Source: a cyanobiont of Ornithocercus magnificus (GTDB lineage Bacteria; Cyanobacteriota; Cyanobacteriia; PCC-6307; Cyanobiaceae). From it: a stretch of 64,000 nt of DNA. Shown one piece after another: positions 17,506 to 24,130 of the stretch (position 1 is its first letter; every line of letters begins with the position of its first letter). The DNA is taken from contig BIMP01000001.1 in assembly GCA_007996965.1 (NCBI GenBank), positions 434,001 to 498,000 on the forward strand, written 5' to 3'. The notes under the pieces are model-generated. The model had not been told where the DNA came from, did no database searches, and saw nothing but the letters and a program-made list of their open reading frames with translations. The translations under genes were made by a program, and so were the position numbers.

Positions 17506-17820
17506 ATGGCGGTGGAGATACCGAGCCGCAGTCCCGGTGGCACAGCGGTGATTGAGAAGCAAGCTGAGAGAGTCCGAAAGCCAGCTCCTCGTTACAAGGT
17601 CTTACTACACAATGACCCAGTGAACACCATGGAGTATGTGGTGGTTACCTTGCGTCAGGTAGTCCCCCAATTAAGTGAGCAAGATGCTATGTCAGTCATG
17701 CTTGAGGCACACAACACCGGAGTAGGACTAGTCATCATTTGTGACATCGAGCCTGCCGAGTTTTACAGCGAGACTCTTAAGGCCAAGGGACTGACAAGTA
17801 CAATCGAGCCAGAAACCTAA
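17506..17820 (+). CDS. clpS: ATP-dependent Clp protease adaptor ClpS
   Basis: Adaptor that hands N-degron substrates to ClpAP/ClpCP. 104 residues: a variable N-terminal tail of about 28 residues, then the core starting YKVLLHNDPVNTMEYVV, with the Asp-Asn-Asp type pocket region (HNDPVNT) and the hydrophobic MLEAHNTGVGLV helix. ATG at 17506 gives MAVEIPSRSPGG. Followed 18 bases later by a CPBP-family protease gene in the same direction. Confidence 0.95.
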   Translation: MAVEIPSRSPGGTAVIEKQAERVRKPAPRYKVLLHNDPVNTMEYVVVTLRQVVPQLSEQDAMSVMLEAHNTGVGLVIICDIEPAEFYSETLKAKGLTSTIEPET

Positions 17821-17838: not shown

Positions 17839-18702
17839 TTGCTATTCTGGAATCGCTGGTTAGGCCAAGAATGTCGCTGGCTCCCGACAGTCACACTAGT
17901 TCCTTTGCTGTACCTATTCGGCCAGGTTACTATCCAACTTATTGCTCCTATGCTAGCAATCCCGCTTGAGCTAAGGGGAACAGCGGGATTGCTGATTAGC
18001 TTTGTACTGCTGCTAGCTATATTACCCAGCTGGGTGTGCCAGCGCTGGCAAACACTACACCCGTGGAGAGCTCTTGGTCTTTGTGAACCACAGTCCTTTA
18101 TTTATGCTATAGGGAAACTCTTGCGGGGCCTAACCTGGGCTGCTTTGCTTCTACTCTGCGTAACTATCCCATTGTTGCTGGGGGGCTGGGCTTCTTGGCT
18201 AGGCGACCTTAACAGCACAGAAATTTTTAATGCGGTAGCATTGCTTCTTGTTGTTGGACTAGCGGAAGAACTATTATTCCGTGGCTGGCTTCTTGGAGAG
18301 CTAATAGTACTATTAGGTCCGCGGCAAGGAGGCCTTGCTCAAGCAGTAATCTTCAGTTTGGTCCACATTCGGCTTGAGGCTGGAGTAATTGAAACAGCAC
18401 CTATACTACTAGGGCTATTCATACTTGGTCTAGTTCTGTTATGCCGCAAGCAACTTGATCATGGATCTCTCTGGGGCTGTATTGGTCTCCACGGCGGCCT
18501 TGTTGGGGGTTGGTTTACTATAGAAATGGGCTTACTACAACTATCACCAAGCTCACCCTCCTGGCTAATTGGTCCAAGTGTTACAGATATAAACCCAATT
18601 GGTAGTCTAACTAGCTTGCTGTGTCTTACAATAGTTCTTAGGATTCAGCGTGTTGCTTTGGCTAAGGCCCCTCTACCTTCTAGTGGTGCTTGCAGTGCTT
18701 GA
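17839..18702 (+). CDS. CPBP family intramembrane metalloprotease
   Basis: 287-residue multi-pass membrane protein of the CPBP (Abi, PF02517) family, related to type II CAAX prenyl endopeptidases. The three signature motifs are present: EELLFR at 143-148, FSLVH at 172-176, and His218 in LHGGLVGGW. About eight hydrophobic segments. TTG start at 17839. Its 3' end overlaps the convergent radical SAM gene by 58 bases. Substrate unknown; roles from maturation to bacteriocin resistance are known in the family, none can be chosen here. Confidence 0.85.
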   Translation: MLFWNRWLGQECRWLPTVTLVPLLYLFGQVTIQLIAPMLAIPLELRGTAGLLISFVLLLAILPSWVCQRWQTLHPWRALGLCEPQSFIYAIGKLLRGLTWAALLLLCVTIPLLLGGWASWLGDLNSTEIFNAVALLLVVGLAEELLFRGWLLGELIVLLGPRQGGLAQAVIFSLVHIRLEAGVIETAPILLGLFILGLVLLCRKQLDHGSLWGCIGLHGGLVGGWFTIEMGLLQLSPSSPSWLIGPSVTDINPIGSLTSLLCLTIVLRIQRVALAKAPLPSSGACSA

Positions 18703-20237
18703 GCAAGTGGAGCTCTGCCATAATCACGTTCCAATAAATCGATTACGGTTCGGCCAAAGTTGTTTGGATTAAGGTCAAAGGCTTCAAGACAGATACGGCC
18801 AAAAGTGCTGCCCATAGGCTCAGGGTTCCATAAGAGCTTGCGTGCTGTCCATGGCATCATGCTCATTGGATTATAGCCAGGCTGGATAATGCCATGTTCG
18901 AAGCCATATTGCTCAAGATGGGTATGAGGTTGAAGCCCAATGAAGAAAATTGCAGGTTCAACTAAGTTAGCGCCAAAGATGCACTCAAGCTCGCGATGAT
19001 ATGCAACTGTCTGACGGATAGTATCAGGACGCTCATCAATGACATTGAAGGAGTAATTGACTGAGACATGGTCGCAAAAGCCTGCATCAGATAGCATACG
19101 GCAGTTCTCAAGAACGGTACGAAGGTTATAACCCATACGCATTTTGCGCACAAGTTCTTGAGAGCCAGAGGTGATGCCAATCTCAAAATAACTCATACCA
19201 GTTTTCACCATTAGTTCAGCGAGCTCAGCATCAAGATTATCTGCACGGATATAGGCAGCCCAATGAATATCTGTGAGCCCTTCGGCATGAATAGCTCTCA
19301 ATAAGTTCTTTGCATCCTCAATGTAACAGCGGGCAGGTATAAACTGAGCATCAGTGAACCAAAAACCGCGAACACCGCGATTGTAGAGTTGACGCATTTC
19401 AGCAACTACTTCCTTCACCGGATTGAGTCGTACTCTCTTTCCTTCAACAGCAGTGTAAACACAATAACAACAGTTGTGTGGGCAGCCGCGTTTAGTCTGT
19501 ACACCTACATAAAAATCGCCTCCCTCTAAGTACCAACTAAACTGAGGCCAAATCATGGCAATATAGTCGTAGTCGCAGGCTGTTTTTAGACAACTTTCTG
19601 GCTGTTCATGTATTAGGCCAGGGCGTGGTGGAGCCTCACCAGCGATGAAACAGCGCTCGCTGTCTATTGGACCCCCACATAATAATTTCTCGAGTAGCGG
19701 CTCGCCCTCGCCAACAGAGATAATAGTGCCTTTTGGTAATAAGCGGCCTAGCTGCTCGTAAAATACACTAACTGCACCACCTCCAAGCACTACGCGAGCC
19801 TGTGGATTGTGGCGCCGTGCACGGCGCAATCCACGCCTCAGAAGAGCCAAGTTACGGCGTAGCTCACTGTAATGACTGGTCATCAGCCGCAAGCCTCCTA
19901 TAGCGCCTCTTAGACGTTTCAAAGGGTTGTGTGCGTAGAAAACCTCAAAGGAGTTCTGTAGAGGGTTGCCACCACGACCATCAACCGGGGCATAAATTTG
20001 GATATCACGCCAGGAAAAAACCAGCAGACTGGGACGAAACTGATCAATGACGTTGAGTAATACCTTCTGAACATCGAGCAGTGGTAGTGCAGCAAGATCA
20101 ATAATCTTCTGTGCCATTCCTGGGAAGCACTTATGTAGATGATCAGCAAGGTATATTGGTCCAATCGGGAAGATTGGGTTGCATGGCAAGCGAACTAGTA
20201 GCACGCGTTCGCAGTCTGCAAAAGTCGTGTGAGTCAT
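18645..20237 (-). CDS. Cobalamin-binding-type radical SAM protein of unknown function
   Basis: 530 residues. The N-terminal 200 residues look like a B12-binding domain of the BchE/P-methylase type (RVLLVRLPCNPIFPIGPIYLA quoted in part: PIGPIYLA; VVLGGGAVSVF; GEGEPLLEKLL). The radical SAM core follows with CPHNCCYC: Cys252, Cys256 and Cys259 bind the 4Fe-4S cluster. Later EIGITSGSQELVRKMRMGY is typical of the barrel. No clear DxHxxG cobalamin motif. Divergent from psbA, an arrangement I recall from other picocyanobacteria, but no reaction is known to me. The 3' end overlaps the CPBP gene by 58 bases. Confidence 0.82.
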   Translation of the reverse strand: MTHTTFADCERVLLVRLPCNPIFPIGPIYLADHLHKCFPGMAQKIIDLAALPLLDVQKVLLNVIDQFRPSLLVFSWRDIQIYAPVDGRGGNPLQNSFEVFYAHNPLKRLRGAIGGLRLMTSHYSELRRNLALLRRGLRRARRHNPQARVVLGGGAVSVFYEQLGRLLPKGTIISVGEGEPLLEKLLCGGPIDSERCFIAGEAPPRPGLIHEQPESCLKTACDYDYIAMIWPQFSWYLEGGDFYVGVQTKRGCPHNCCYCVYTAVEGKRVRLNPVKEVVAEMRQLYNRGVRGFWFTDAQFIPARCYIEDAKNLLRAIHAEGLTDIHWAAYIRADNLDAELAELMVKTGMSYFEIGITSGSQELVRKMRMGYNLRTVLENCRMLSDAGFCDHVSVNYSFNVIDERPDTIRQTVAYHRELECIFGANLVEPAIFFIGLQPHTHLEQYGFEHGIIQPGYNPMSMMPWTARKLLWNPEPMGSTFGRICLEAFDLNPNNFGRTVIDLLERDYGRAPLAQALQAPLEGRGALAKATR

Positions 20238-20793
20238 TAGTGGAGAGAGTACGATGTGACTCAGGCTGGCCCTAGAGGCTAACGATTTCTACCCAGGCTT
20301 GAGGCAAGTCTGAATTTGGCTGCTAGGCTATAGAGTGACCTAAGCCAGCTTAGGAAGGCTGCAATCTTAGGTTCTGAAGATAGGGATTACTAGAGTTTGC
20401 GTTCACAATAACTAGAAATGTATAAGCGCAAGGGTAGTCTTGGCACCTACACCAGCCTCACTGTATTGGCAACTAATTACTTAATGTAACTCCTCTAAAA
20501 TTCCCCATGGTCTCTCCATCTCTACAGCCTTGGGAGTGCTGTGAGAACAGCGCGCAGAAACTCGCTATAGATAGCAGTCTAAATGTATTGTGATATCTTA
20601 TCACTTGCTCAGCCAAGTATGACTCTTCAGGATTGAGCCATATCTACCTTAATCTTAAAAACTAGAATATCTGCTACTTTAGACAAAATTTAGCTGCTAT
20701 GCTCTGGGTAGTTAGTCAGGTCCATAACCACTACACCTAAAGCATAAATTATCAAGTGCACAAAGCCAGACTTTGAACAATAGAGCCTGTTTC

Positions 20794-20811
20794 TAGCCGC
20801 TAGTGCGGCTA
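20794..20811 (+). promoter_or_regulatory. Inverted repeat in the psbA upstream region
   Basis: TAGCCGC, TAGT, GCGGCTA: seven-base arms with a four-base loop, about 125 bases before the psbA ATG. A possible minus-10 box, TTAATAA, follows near 20827-20833. Could be an operator or, if transcription starts upstream, a leader hairpin. Confidence 0.4.
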
Positions 20812-20876
20812 ATTCTTCACAAAGCCTTAATAAAGAGAGACGCGTGAGCCGCAATCTTCCGTTACAGTCCCGACCA

Positions 20877-20919
20877 GGCAGGGCACCCCTGCCCTTCCTT
20901 AACCGTCCCCAAGCGGGAC
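20877..20919 (+). promoter_or_regulatory. Tandem hairpins in psbA leader
   Basis: Two adjacent stems directly before psbA. First: GGCAGGG (20877-20883) with CCCTGCC (20887-20893), loop of three. Second: GTCCC (20905-20909) with GGGAC (20915-20919), loop of five. The second ends 16 bases before the ATG, so it could affect ribosome access or mRNA stability. Cyanobacterial psbA transcripts are controlled at mRNA stability, which makes a leader role plausible but unproven here. Confidence 0.5.
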
Positions 20920-20935
20920 CTTCTTCTACGTCTTC

Positions 20936-22015
20936 ATGACCACAACCATCCAACAGCGCTCCGGCGCTAATGGCTGGCAGCAATTCTGCGAGTGGGTCAC
21001 CTCCACCAACAACCGCCTCTACGTAGGCTGGTTCGGTGTGCTGATGATCCCCACCCTCCTGGCTGCCACCACCTGCTTCATCGTCGCCTTCATCGCCGCT
21101 CCACCGGTCGATATCGACGGTATCCGCGAGCCTGTCGCCGGCTCTTTGATCTACGGCAACAACATCATCTCCGGTGCTGTTGTGCCTTCATCCAACGCCA
21201 TCGGCCTGCACTTCTACCCCATCTGGGAAGCTGCCTCCCTCGATGAGTGGCTGTACAACGGCGGTCCCTACCAGCTCGTCGTCTTCCACTTCCTGATCGG
21301 CATCTTCTGCTACATGGGACGCGAGTGGGAGCTCTCCTACCGCCTCGGCATGCGCCCCTGGATCTGCGTTGCTTACAGCGCCCCTGTGGCTGCTGCCTCC
21401 GCCGTTTTCCTGGTGTATCCCTTCGGTCAGGGTTCCTTCTCAGATGGCATGCCTCTCGGCATCTCCGGCACCTTCAACTTCATGCTGGTATTCCAGGCTG
21501 AGCACAGCATCCTCATGCACCCCTTCCACATGATGGGTGTAGCCGGTGTATTTGGCGGCAGCCTGTTCTCTGCCATGCACGGTTCTCTGGTGACCTCCTC
21601 GCTGGTGCGTGAGACCACTGAGACCGAGTCTCAGAACTATGGCTATAAGTTCGGCCAGGAAGAAGAGACCTACAACATCGTGGCCGCCCACGGTTACTTC
21701 GGTCGTCTGATCTTCCAGTACGCCTCTTTCAACAACAGCCGCAGCCTGCACTTCTTCCTAGCTGCCTGGCCGGTTGTAGGCATCTGGTTCACCGCTCTCG
21801 GCGTGAGCACCATGGCTTTCAACCTGAACGGTTTCAACTTCAACCAGTCCATCCTCGATGGTCAGGGCCGCGTCCTGAACACCTGGGCTGACGTTCTGAA
21901 CCGCGCCAACCTGGGCATGGAAGTAATGCACGAGCGCAACGCTCACAACTTCCCTCTCGACCTGGCCGCAGCTGAATCCACACCCGTGGCTCTGCAAGCT
22001 CCTGCCATCGGCTGA
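20936..22015 (+). CDS. psbA: Photosystem II D1 protein
   Basis: Core reaction-centre subunit that binds P680 chlorophylls, pheophytin, QB and the Mn cluster, and is replaced after photodamage. 359 residues, five membrane helices. Residue 130 is Glu (in YMGREWEL), the high-light D1:2 form that hydrogen-bonds pheophytin; the D1:1 form has Gln. The C-terminus reads NFPLDLA then [15 protein letters not shown], so CtpA cleavage after Ala344 would remove a 15-residue tail. [16 protein letters not shown] is more like marine Synechococcus than Prochlorococcus as I recall them. Codons are strongly C-ending and the gene is about 60 percent GC, clearly above its neighbours. Flanked by leader hairpins and a strong terminator. 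Confidence 0.99.
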
Positions 22016-23410: not shown

Positions 23411-24130
23411 CTAAGCGTGTTGCGAGATCCACTTGTAAAGTGATGGGTCTATCCCCCCATCAATAAGTAGTGATTGACCGAGTGCAACTGCATTATGGCC
23501 AGCACCAAGCCAGTTATCTAAGTCTGAGACTTTGAGACCACCCGCAGCAATCACAGCAGGTAGTGGTTTTAATGGTGCATGTAGATATCTCCAATAGCGT
23601 GGTCCAACTATAGATGCAGGAAATAGCTTTACCAGATTACAGCCTAGTTGGATAGCCTGGTGAATCTCTGTTGGAGAAAGAACCCCTGGCACAAGAAGTA
23701 AGCCAAGTTGGTAAGCTAGCTTCTGCAAAGAGTCATCAAGAAAGGGAGATGTGGCGTAAGTTAGACCAGCTTGAACTGCATCACGGACTGCGTCCGCGCA
23801 GCATACAGATGTGGCTCCAAGTGAAAAGTCAGGCCAGTGACTCTTCAGAATCTTAATAGAGTTGACCCAACCAGAATCCGGCCTCCAGGCTAGCTCAAGA
23901 TGTCGTATGCCAGTATTATTTAGGTCATCTAGAAGTTTGACCCAGCTTAGTGGAAATCCTGAAGCTGTAGCTCCAGCATGACAGCCTGGATAAAACACCT
24001 CAGCATCAGGTCGTAGAACCACCAGCAGAGGCTGTTTCTGAAGCGAAGTAATTAATGAGGCGGATCCTGGTTGATAGCATCTGCTAGGGTAAAAATGGTT
24101 ATCAGACGTATTCAGCAACCCGAACATCAC
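23411..24130 (-). CDS. eda: KDPG/KHG aldolase family protein
   Basis: 239 residues of the class I KDPG aldolase fold (PF01081). The Schiff-base lysine is present in LVKLFPAS and the catalytic-type Glu in HLELAWR, but other Entner-Doudoroff positions differ from E. coli Eda as I remember it: VTLR reads LAWR, GAGTV reads GATSV and SPGL reads SPFL. The true substrate (KDPG, 4-hydroxy-2-oxoglutarate or another keto acid) is therefore open. The first 28 bases overlap the end of ftsH on the same strand, and a later start is possible. This position beside ftsH recurs in picocyanobacteria to my knowledge. Confidence 0.8.
   Translation of the reverse strand: MMFGLLNTSDNHFYPSRCYQPGSASLITSLQKQPLLVVLRPDAEVFYPGCHAGATASGFPLSWVKLLDDLNNTGIRHLELAWRPDSGWVNSIKILKSHWPDFSLGATSVCCADAVRDAVQAGLTYATSPFLDDSLQKLAYQLGLLLVPGVLSPTEIHQAIQLGCNLVKLFPASIVGPRYWRYLHAPLKPLPAVIAAGGLKVSDLDNWLGAGHNAVALGQSLLIDGGIDPSLYKWISQHA

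Follow-up and report, generated by a model that had tools for sequence, protein, structure and literature searches.

Results

Gene content and integrity of the locus

The window, by which we mean the whole stretch of 64,000 nucleotides that was analysed, carries on its reverse strand an open reading frame at 18645-20237 that begins with ATG, encodes 530 residues and contains zero internal stops. Its product has the CX3CX2C motif and the barrel by which the radical SAM superfamily is recognised, and the gene stands head to head with a copy of psbA. The features of the locus are listed below.

17506..17820, forward strand: clpS
17839..18702, forward strand: gene for a CPBP/Rce1-like membrane protease, convergent with the radical SAM gene
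18645..20237, reverse strand: rSAM_slr0320 family gene, 530 amino acids (NF045585, 960.8 bits, cut-off 775)
18918..19514, reverse strand: radical SAM core, about residues 242-440, from Pfam and the predicted fold (edges approximate)
19461..19484, reverse strand: CX3CX2C motif CPHNCCYC, codons C252 to C259, with cysteines C252, C256 and C259
19680..20210, reverse strand: B12-binding-like Rossmann domain, about residues 10-186 (edges inferred from the predicted model)
20238..20935: divergent spacer between the radical SAM gene and psbA, 698 bp
20876..20919, forward strand: PhotoRC-I RNA (RF01716), psbA leader, 52 bits (gathering threshold 45)
20936..22015, forward strand: psbA (D1), the next gene, head to head, with Glu at residue 130
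C1:454936, C13:2802, C1:127493 and C12:5829: psbA copies and psbA-like piece in the window's own genome (G000)

The core matches Pfam Radical_SAM at 64.9 bits against a cut-off of 29.5, and C252, C256 and C259 are the expected ligands of a [4Fe-4S] cluster. The Pfam B12-binding profile reaches only 22 bits against its cut-off of 32.1, over profile positions 61-120 of 121, and the Rossmann domain holds four segments (LPCNP, SWRD, GGG and GEGE) that are invariant in 149 sequences. The B12-binding-like domain of the original prediction is weak by sequence but is supported by the predicted fold. That prediction had also called the gene full length and intact and had pointed to the CPHNCCYC cluster motif; the unbroken 530-residue frame, the low dN given below and the motif at 19461-19484 bear out both points.

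The 3' ends of the radical SAM gene and the convergent CPBP gene overlap by 58 bp (18645-18702). The other neighbours in the window are an LL-diaminopimelate aminotransferase gene, aroC, an eda-like gene, and genes for FtsH and ATP sulfurylase. The eda-like aldolase (23411-24130, reverse strand) is strongly diverged, scoring 95.3 bits against the TIGR01182 cut-off of 156.05 and sharing 39-45% identity with its relatives. Decay of nearby spacers had been suggested as well, but the psbA spacer, to which our comparison is confined, is not unusual, since its 698 bp fall within the 153-1539 bp found in the 13 other psbA-bearing loci of the window's taxonomic family.

The D1 copy beside the radical SAM gene has Glu at position 130, which we take to mark the high-light D1 form; several Prochlorococcus loci, and loci L011 and L136, have Gln there. 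In this genome psbA occurs as three complete or nearly complete copies, two of them identical and the third at 99%, plus a fourth, partial psbA-like piece. No HLR1 (RpaB) site stood out in the 300 bp before the window gene, where the best match to the consensus has 4 mismatches and shuffled versions of that stretch average 4.65; for the window and loci L021-L090, 20 mononucleotide shuffles of 300 bp were made at each locus. Loci L048 and L079 do contain the HLR1 core printed for slr0320 (PMC6331805).

Family identity and relatives

The product belongs, with near certainty, to the Slr0320 family. The match to NF045585 (rSAM_slr0320), an NCBI equivalog model described as 'photosystem II high light acclimation radical SAM protein', covers residues 10-519 of the protein and positions 2-511 of the 511 in the model. 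Family model, alignment and predicted fold together show the product to be an orthologue of Synechocystis Slr0320 with a predicted cobalamin-type (class B) architecture, in agreement with the cobalamin-type radical SAM protein first proposed. Slr0320 of Synechocystis PCC 6803 has the same two domains as published (PMC8065906); it differs from the window gene in that psbA adjoins the latter, and the role of Slr0320 in high light is, as far as known, reported from Synechocystis only. The gene is thus the picocyanobacterial copy of an already known, partly characterised cyanobacterial family. The label 'uncharacterised' has to be dropped, given the published mutant of the Synechocystis orthologue (PMC8065906) and the equivalog model. 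What was first said of the reaction stands: the authors of PMC8065906 assign none, and among the titles, abstract openings and passages that our literature search covered we recognised no other paper that reports one.

The second-best NCBIfam match is TIGR04072, a 'lipid biosynthesis B12-binding/radical SAM protein' of ladderane loci, at 115.5 bits against a cut-off of 360. The remaining matches all lie far under their own cut-offs: BzaD at 91.8 bits, PhpK at 66.4, AprD4 at 63.9, the MgmA-type TIGR04014 at 59.2 (cut-off 360) and BchE TIGR02026 at 45.3 (cut-off 481.35). BchE, the anaerobic Mg-protoporphyrin cyclase, has the same domain order, and its weak match spans residues 134-413.

Predicted fold

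An AlphaFold model built with 46 sequences (mean pLDDT 78.8, pTM 0.82; low confidence in the cluster loop, residues 244-268) has its best structural match in TsrM, with Z 22.6 over 415 aligned residues at an rmsd of 3.1. Further matches over most of the chain are OxsB (Z 20.6), AprD4 (20.5), MgmA (19.1) and CysS (18.9); TokK (16.4) and RimO and MiaB (about 15) follow lower down. The predicted fold has the architecture of cobalamin-type radical SAM enzymes. It does not separate a methylase from a dehydratase or other chemistry, nor does it prove a bound cobamide. TsrM (6wte/6wtf), a cobalamin radical SAM tryptophan methylase, has the fold in common with the window protein, but identity is only 19% and its substrate is, as far as known, unrelated. 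MgmA (9ccb), the methyl-coenzyme M reductase glutamine methylase, resembles the window protein in fold and has a core sequence match, but it acts on a methanogen protein and the window protein falls under the TIGR04014 cut-off. AprD4 (6fd2), a radical SAM diol dehydratase, is the best PDB sequence match; the window protein lies below the NF033070 cut-off for it.

Conservation and distribution

Sixty related genomes yielded 51 full-length matches and one partial match (G027); the other eight gave either no match or a merely distant one. Of 386 genomes drawn from across the phylum, 176 exceeded the NF045585 cut-off. They make up 176 of the 186 genomes of the class, against 0 of the 200 outside it, and include all 58 genomes of the window's family and 118 of the 128 others in the class. 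The gene appears to be single copy, no genome occurring twice among the matches listed. Across 149 distinct sequences, 162 of the 530 positions are invariant, among them cysteines C19, C221, C252, C256, C259 and C483, and within residues 10-519 the window protein has no residue of its own in any column that is more than 90% common. Comparison with five relatives gives a dN of 0.120-0.141, and in all five dS is saturated and not computable; for the neighbouring CPBP and eda genes dN is about 0.5-0.7 where computable. A tree of 46 rows places 20 picocyanobacterial rows on one side of a single branch (support 100/99), as expected for vertical descent.

CP43/CP47-type genes occur in each of the 10 class genomes that fall below the cut-off, so that the gene is not strictly required by photosystem II; in these genomes the enzyme step is dispensable or replaceable. 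Absence of the gene is firmer for G110, G160, G169, G199 and G047. It is doubtful for G238 and G366, which look gappy (psbA is not matched at E 1e-100 in the former, nor psbL in the latter), and for G360, which has a weaker match only (best E 2.1e-102). Seven DUF1830 loci of gene-lacking genomes were searched for a remnant of the gene, and the sole match covers 38 residues at E 0.51. Ten sampled genomes outside the class gave no match to PF00421 (CP43/CP47).

We also looked for mobile copies. The single phage match has 25.1% identity over half of the query; 40 plasmid records match, all below 60% identity, and the 10 of them that were listed are all annotated as bchE or hpnJ; no viral contig carries the gene by exact back-translated patterns. 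Two gene copies (L156 and L159) sit on contigs of a metagenome-assembled genome titled Bifidobacterium breve, which is surely cyanobacterial contamination or a wrong title.

Co-occurrence over 80 genomes gave no support for B12 dependence, absence of the gene not tracking B12 loss. The 10 gene-lacking genomes all have MetH, and nine have CobQ over the cut-off (G253 does not); gene-bearing G195 has only a decayed cobQ, and in G112 and G136, gene-bearing too, CobQ matches fall under the cut-off. G105 (locus L088; a single contig of 3.76 Mb) has CobQ and the radical SAM gene and no MetH match, so its cobamide presumably serves other enzymes.

Gene neighbourhood across cyanobacteria

The original prediction described the position next to psbA as lasting in picocyanobacteria. 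Within the window's family this largely holds: psbA is the nearest tracked upstream gene in 14 of 20 loci, window included, while 18 of these loci have clpS and 17 the CPBP gene. One of the six loci without psbA, L069, has a contig end about 260 bp from the gene. Outside the family psbA holds that place in 0 of 20 loci; at L077 it starts 8.4 kb away, at the edge of the locus. Of the 80 named loci, 79 have a full reading frame, and in 50 of these a contig ends less than 1.5 kb upstream of the gene. Several of these ends carry a piece of psbA, as expected because a multi-copy gene breaks assemblies. Upstream sequence of 4 kb or more is available at 21 named loci: 12 have psbA within about 1.2 kb, a 13th (L159) has a psbA piece 4.6 kb away, and eight, seven of Prochlorococcus and one of Synechococcus lacustris, have none.

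Elsewhere in the class the usual partner is a DUF1830 gene. Of 20 such loci, 15 have it immediately upstream (opposite strand in 14), and it lies within 2 kb in 48 of 64 genomes outside the family. DUF1830 was found in 79 of 80 genomes; the exception is the window's own genome (95.6% complete), where absence is not firm because the search matched 0 of 14 control genomes even though a DUF1830 gene has been named in S. elongatus (PMC7344720). The domain occurs in the carbon/nitrogen regulator PirC/CfrA and in PirN (PMC13205821) as well as in Sll0944 (PMC6603209). Outside picocyanobacteria, genes for a DICT-domain sensor and pentapeptide repeats often follow the gene (L072, L081, L085-L088 and L090). 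Adjacency to psbA is thus an arrangement local to the picocyanobacterial lineage and says little about function.

Retention in genomes with decayed photosystem II genes

Three single-contig genomes of one genus, G195 (2,794,318 bp), G227 (3,020,309 bp) and G310 (3,072,807 bp), have only decayed CP43/CP47 genes and a psbA decayed with many stops. The Slr0320 orthologues of these genomes are free of internal stops and reach 1048.6-1049.7 bits. Two methods put pairwise dN/dS at 0.085-0.158 among the three copies and at 0.033-0.061 against G191, a relative in that genus whose CP43/CP47 genes are intact; all 45 of the invariant residues chosen for comparison are kept. In G195 the reading frame stops a few residues short, within the variable C-terminal tail. 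The gene is thus intact and under purifying selection in three genomes in which psbA and CP43/CP47 have decayed. In the adjacent DUF1830 stretch there is an in-frame stop in G195 and G310 and none in G227, and G195, the smallest of the three genomes, has a decayed cobQ.

We infer that G227 and G195 are the spheroid bodies of Rhopalodia gibberula and Epithemia turgida, respectively, which are diatom endosymbionts. The R. gibberula spheroid body genome is about 3.02 Mbp, that of E. turgida is more than 200 kbp smaller, the genomes have 33-34% G+C, and they are described as having no or few functional photosystem genes (PMC5638926). The 11-kb stretches that we took from the three genomes have a G+C of 0.307-0.318. 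Diazoplasts have lost the photosystems and kept thylakoids and a complete respiratory chain (PMC11070190). Among core proteins absent from Rhopalodian endosymbionts, Table 1 of PMC12903740 counts 24 of photosystem II, 11 of photosystem I, seven of phylloquinone and three of tocopherol synthesis; the E. turgida spheroid body is described there as unable to make pseudocobalamin, with MetH and QueG kept. A prenyltransferase model, NF009513, of the wrong family for plastoquinone, reached its cut-off in 0 of 12 genomes, and the match inspected, in L277, looks by eye like a protein of the chlorophyll-synthase type.

Discussion

In Synechocystis, a slr0320 transposon mutant shows a growth defect in high light but none in normal light, and complementation rescues its growth (PMC8065906), which upholds the link to photosynthesis hinted at in the original prediction. 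The amount and assembly of photosystem II are normal, its activity slightly exceeds that of the wild type when DCBQ is supplied as an artificial acceptor, and photosystem I traces are normal. Reoxidation of QA-, in contrast, has a smaller fast phase and slower fast and middle phases, and QA-to-QB transfer is slow (PMC8065906). Among 1785 shared proteins, 26 are down and 18 up in normal light, and 54 down and 28 up in high light; psbH and psbI transcripts and the PsbL protein are changed (PMC8065906). We read this phenotype as a fault of the native quinone and not of a photosystem II protein, since normal photosystem II activity with DCBQ, taken together with the mutant kinetics, fits a plastoquinone defect best. 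Quinone methylation was raised as a possibility by the authors of that study (PMC8065906).

Retention of the gene without intact photosystem II genes disfavours a role in photosystem II only and suggests that the real target of the enzyme is something other than photosystem II. If the enzyme served only photosystem II, photosystem I, phylloquinone or tocopherol, decay of its gene would be predicted in G195, G227 and G310, and each of these roles is disfavoured on that ground. What these genomes and photosynthetic cyanobacteria still have in common is a thylakoid respiratory chain, which would use plastoquinone, along with membrane lipids and general metabolism. For Synechocystis, the route to plastoquinone was still described in 2020 as not fully determined (PMC7133116). 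The mutant kinetics, retention without photosystem II and an incompletely determined plastoquinone pathway together lead us to rank first, tentatively and as an unproven reading, an enzyme that maintains or modifies the plastoquinone pool.

Several other targets were weighed against this and ranked behind it. Modification of a photosystem II protein residue near the quinone sites, in D1, D2 or a small subunit, in the manner of MgmA, would agree with the QA/QB phenotype (PMC8065906), with the place of MgmA among the best structural matches (Z 19.1, albeit with 59.2 bits against the TIGR04014 cut-off of 360) and with the psbA gene adjoining most family loci; we nevertheless consider it quite improbable, for selection maintains the gene in three genomes where neither psbA nor CP43/CP47 is intact. 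Nor does any column of D1, D2, CP43, CP47, PsbF or PsbJ separate five gene-lacking from 10 gene-bearing genomes. This is a weak test, since a target residue could persist without being modified, each genome is represented by its best D1 copy, some D2 sequences are truncated at contig ends, and the comparison was confined to these subunits together with PsbE and PsbL. Single columns of PsbE and PsbL do separate the two sets, but mostly without aligned letters. Synthesis or modification of a thylakoid lipid or other membrane compound, which would affect electron transfer indirectly, would agree with diazoplasts that keep thylakoids without photosystems (PMC11070190), and the second-best NCBIfam match, TIGR04072, points the same way; that match is a distant one (115.5 bits, far under the cut-off of 360), however, and photosystem I kinetics and thylakoid protein amounts in the mutant are near normal (PMC8065906), so we regard a lipid product as rather unlikely.

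We hold a low opinion, too, of the chances of a broader target, such as a protein of NDH-1, cytochrome b6f or an oxidase, an RNA or a metabolite, with the photosystem II phenotype being secondary. Retention without photosystem II would suit it, as would the fold match at Z of about 15 to RimO and MiaB, whose substrates are a ribosomal protein and tRNA, and the usual DUF1830 neighbour outside picocyanobacteria (48 of 64), a domain of PirC/CfrA and PirN (PMC13205821). Against it, the mutant grows normally in normal light, and its proteome shifts are limited to 26 proteins down and 18 up of 1785 in normal light and 54 down and 28 up in high light (PMC8065906). A separate doubt, compatible with any of these targets, concerns the cofactor: the B12-like domain might be merely structural, with no cobamide used. 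AprD4, the best PDB sequence match (Z 20.5), is not known to use a cobamide, Pfam B12-binding stays under its cut-off, and the presence of the gene does not follow B12 biosynthesis in 80 genomes. Cobalamin-bound TsrM and OxsB, together with MgmA and CysS, match about equally well, however, and the LPCNP, SWRD, GGG and GEGE segments are invariant in 149 sequences, which makes a purely structural domain doubtful in our view.

For an enzyme of the plastoquinone pool, we propose the following sequence of events. The N-terminal Rossmann domain would hold a cobamide (pseudocobalamin in cyanobacteria), and the barrel would carry a [4Fe-4S] cluster on C252, C256 and C259, at which SAM would be cleaved. 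A methyl group or a radical would then be passed to a small hydrophobic substrate. The likeliest outcome would be a modification that the thylakoid pool needs, for instance C-methylation of either plastoquinone or one of its precursors, or else a closely linked accessory step. On loss of the enzyme, photosystem II would still be assembled but would be poorly served by plastoquinone, giving slow QA-to-QB transfer in strong light. Respiration draws on the same plastoquinone pool, and this would explain the presence of the enzyme in lineages without photosystem II. Counting against the proposal are the 10 of 186 class genomes below the cut-off despite their CP43/CP47-type genes, the weak sequence support for B12 binding, the fold matches to AprD4, a dehydratase, and to RimO and MiaB, which are methylthiotransferases, and the altered psbH and psbI transcripts and PsbL protein of the mutant (PMC8065906).

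The family is near-universal in the sampled oxygenic cyanobacteria and extremely conserved. The new element is that selection retains it where photosystem II genes are no longer intact. This turns the search for a substrate in another direction: the question shifts from how the enzyme acts on photosystem II to what the thylakoid electron chain needs from it. If the enzyme is cobamide-dependent, it would be a further candidate cobamide user in the endosymbionts, for which the relevant passages of PMC12903740 name only MetH and QueG, and it would tie B12 supply to photosynthetic performance.
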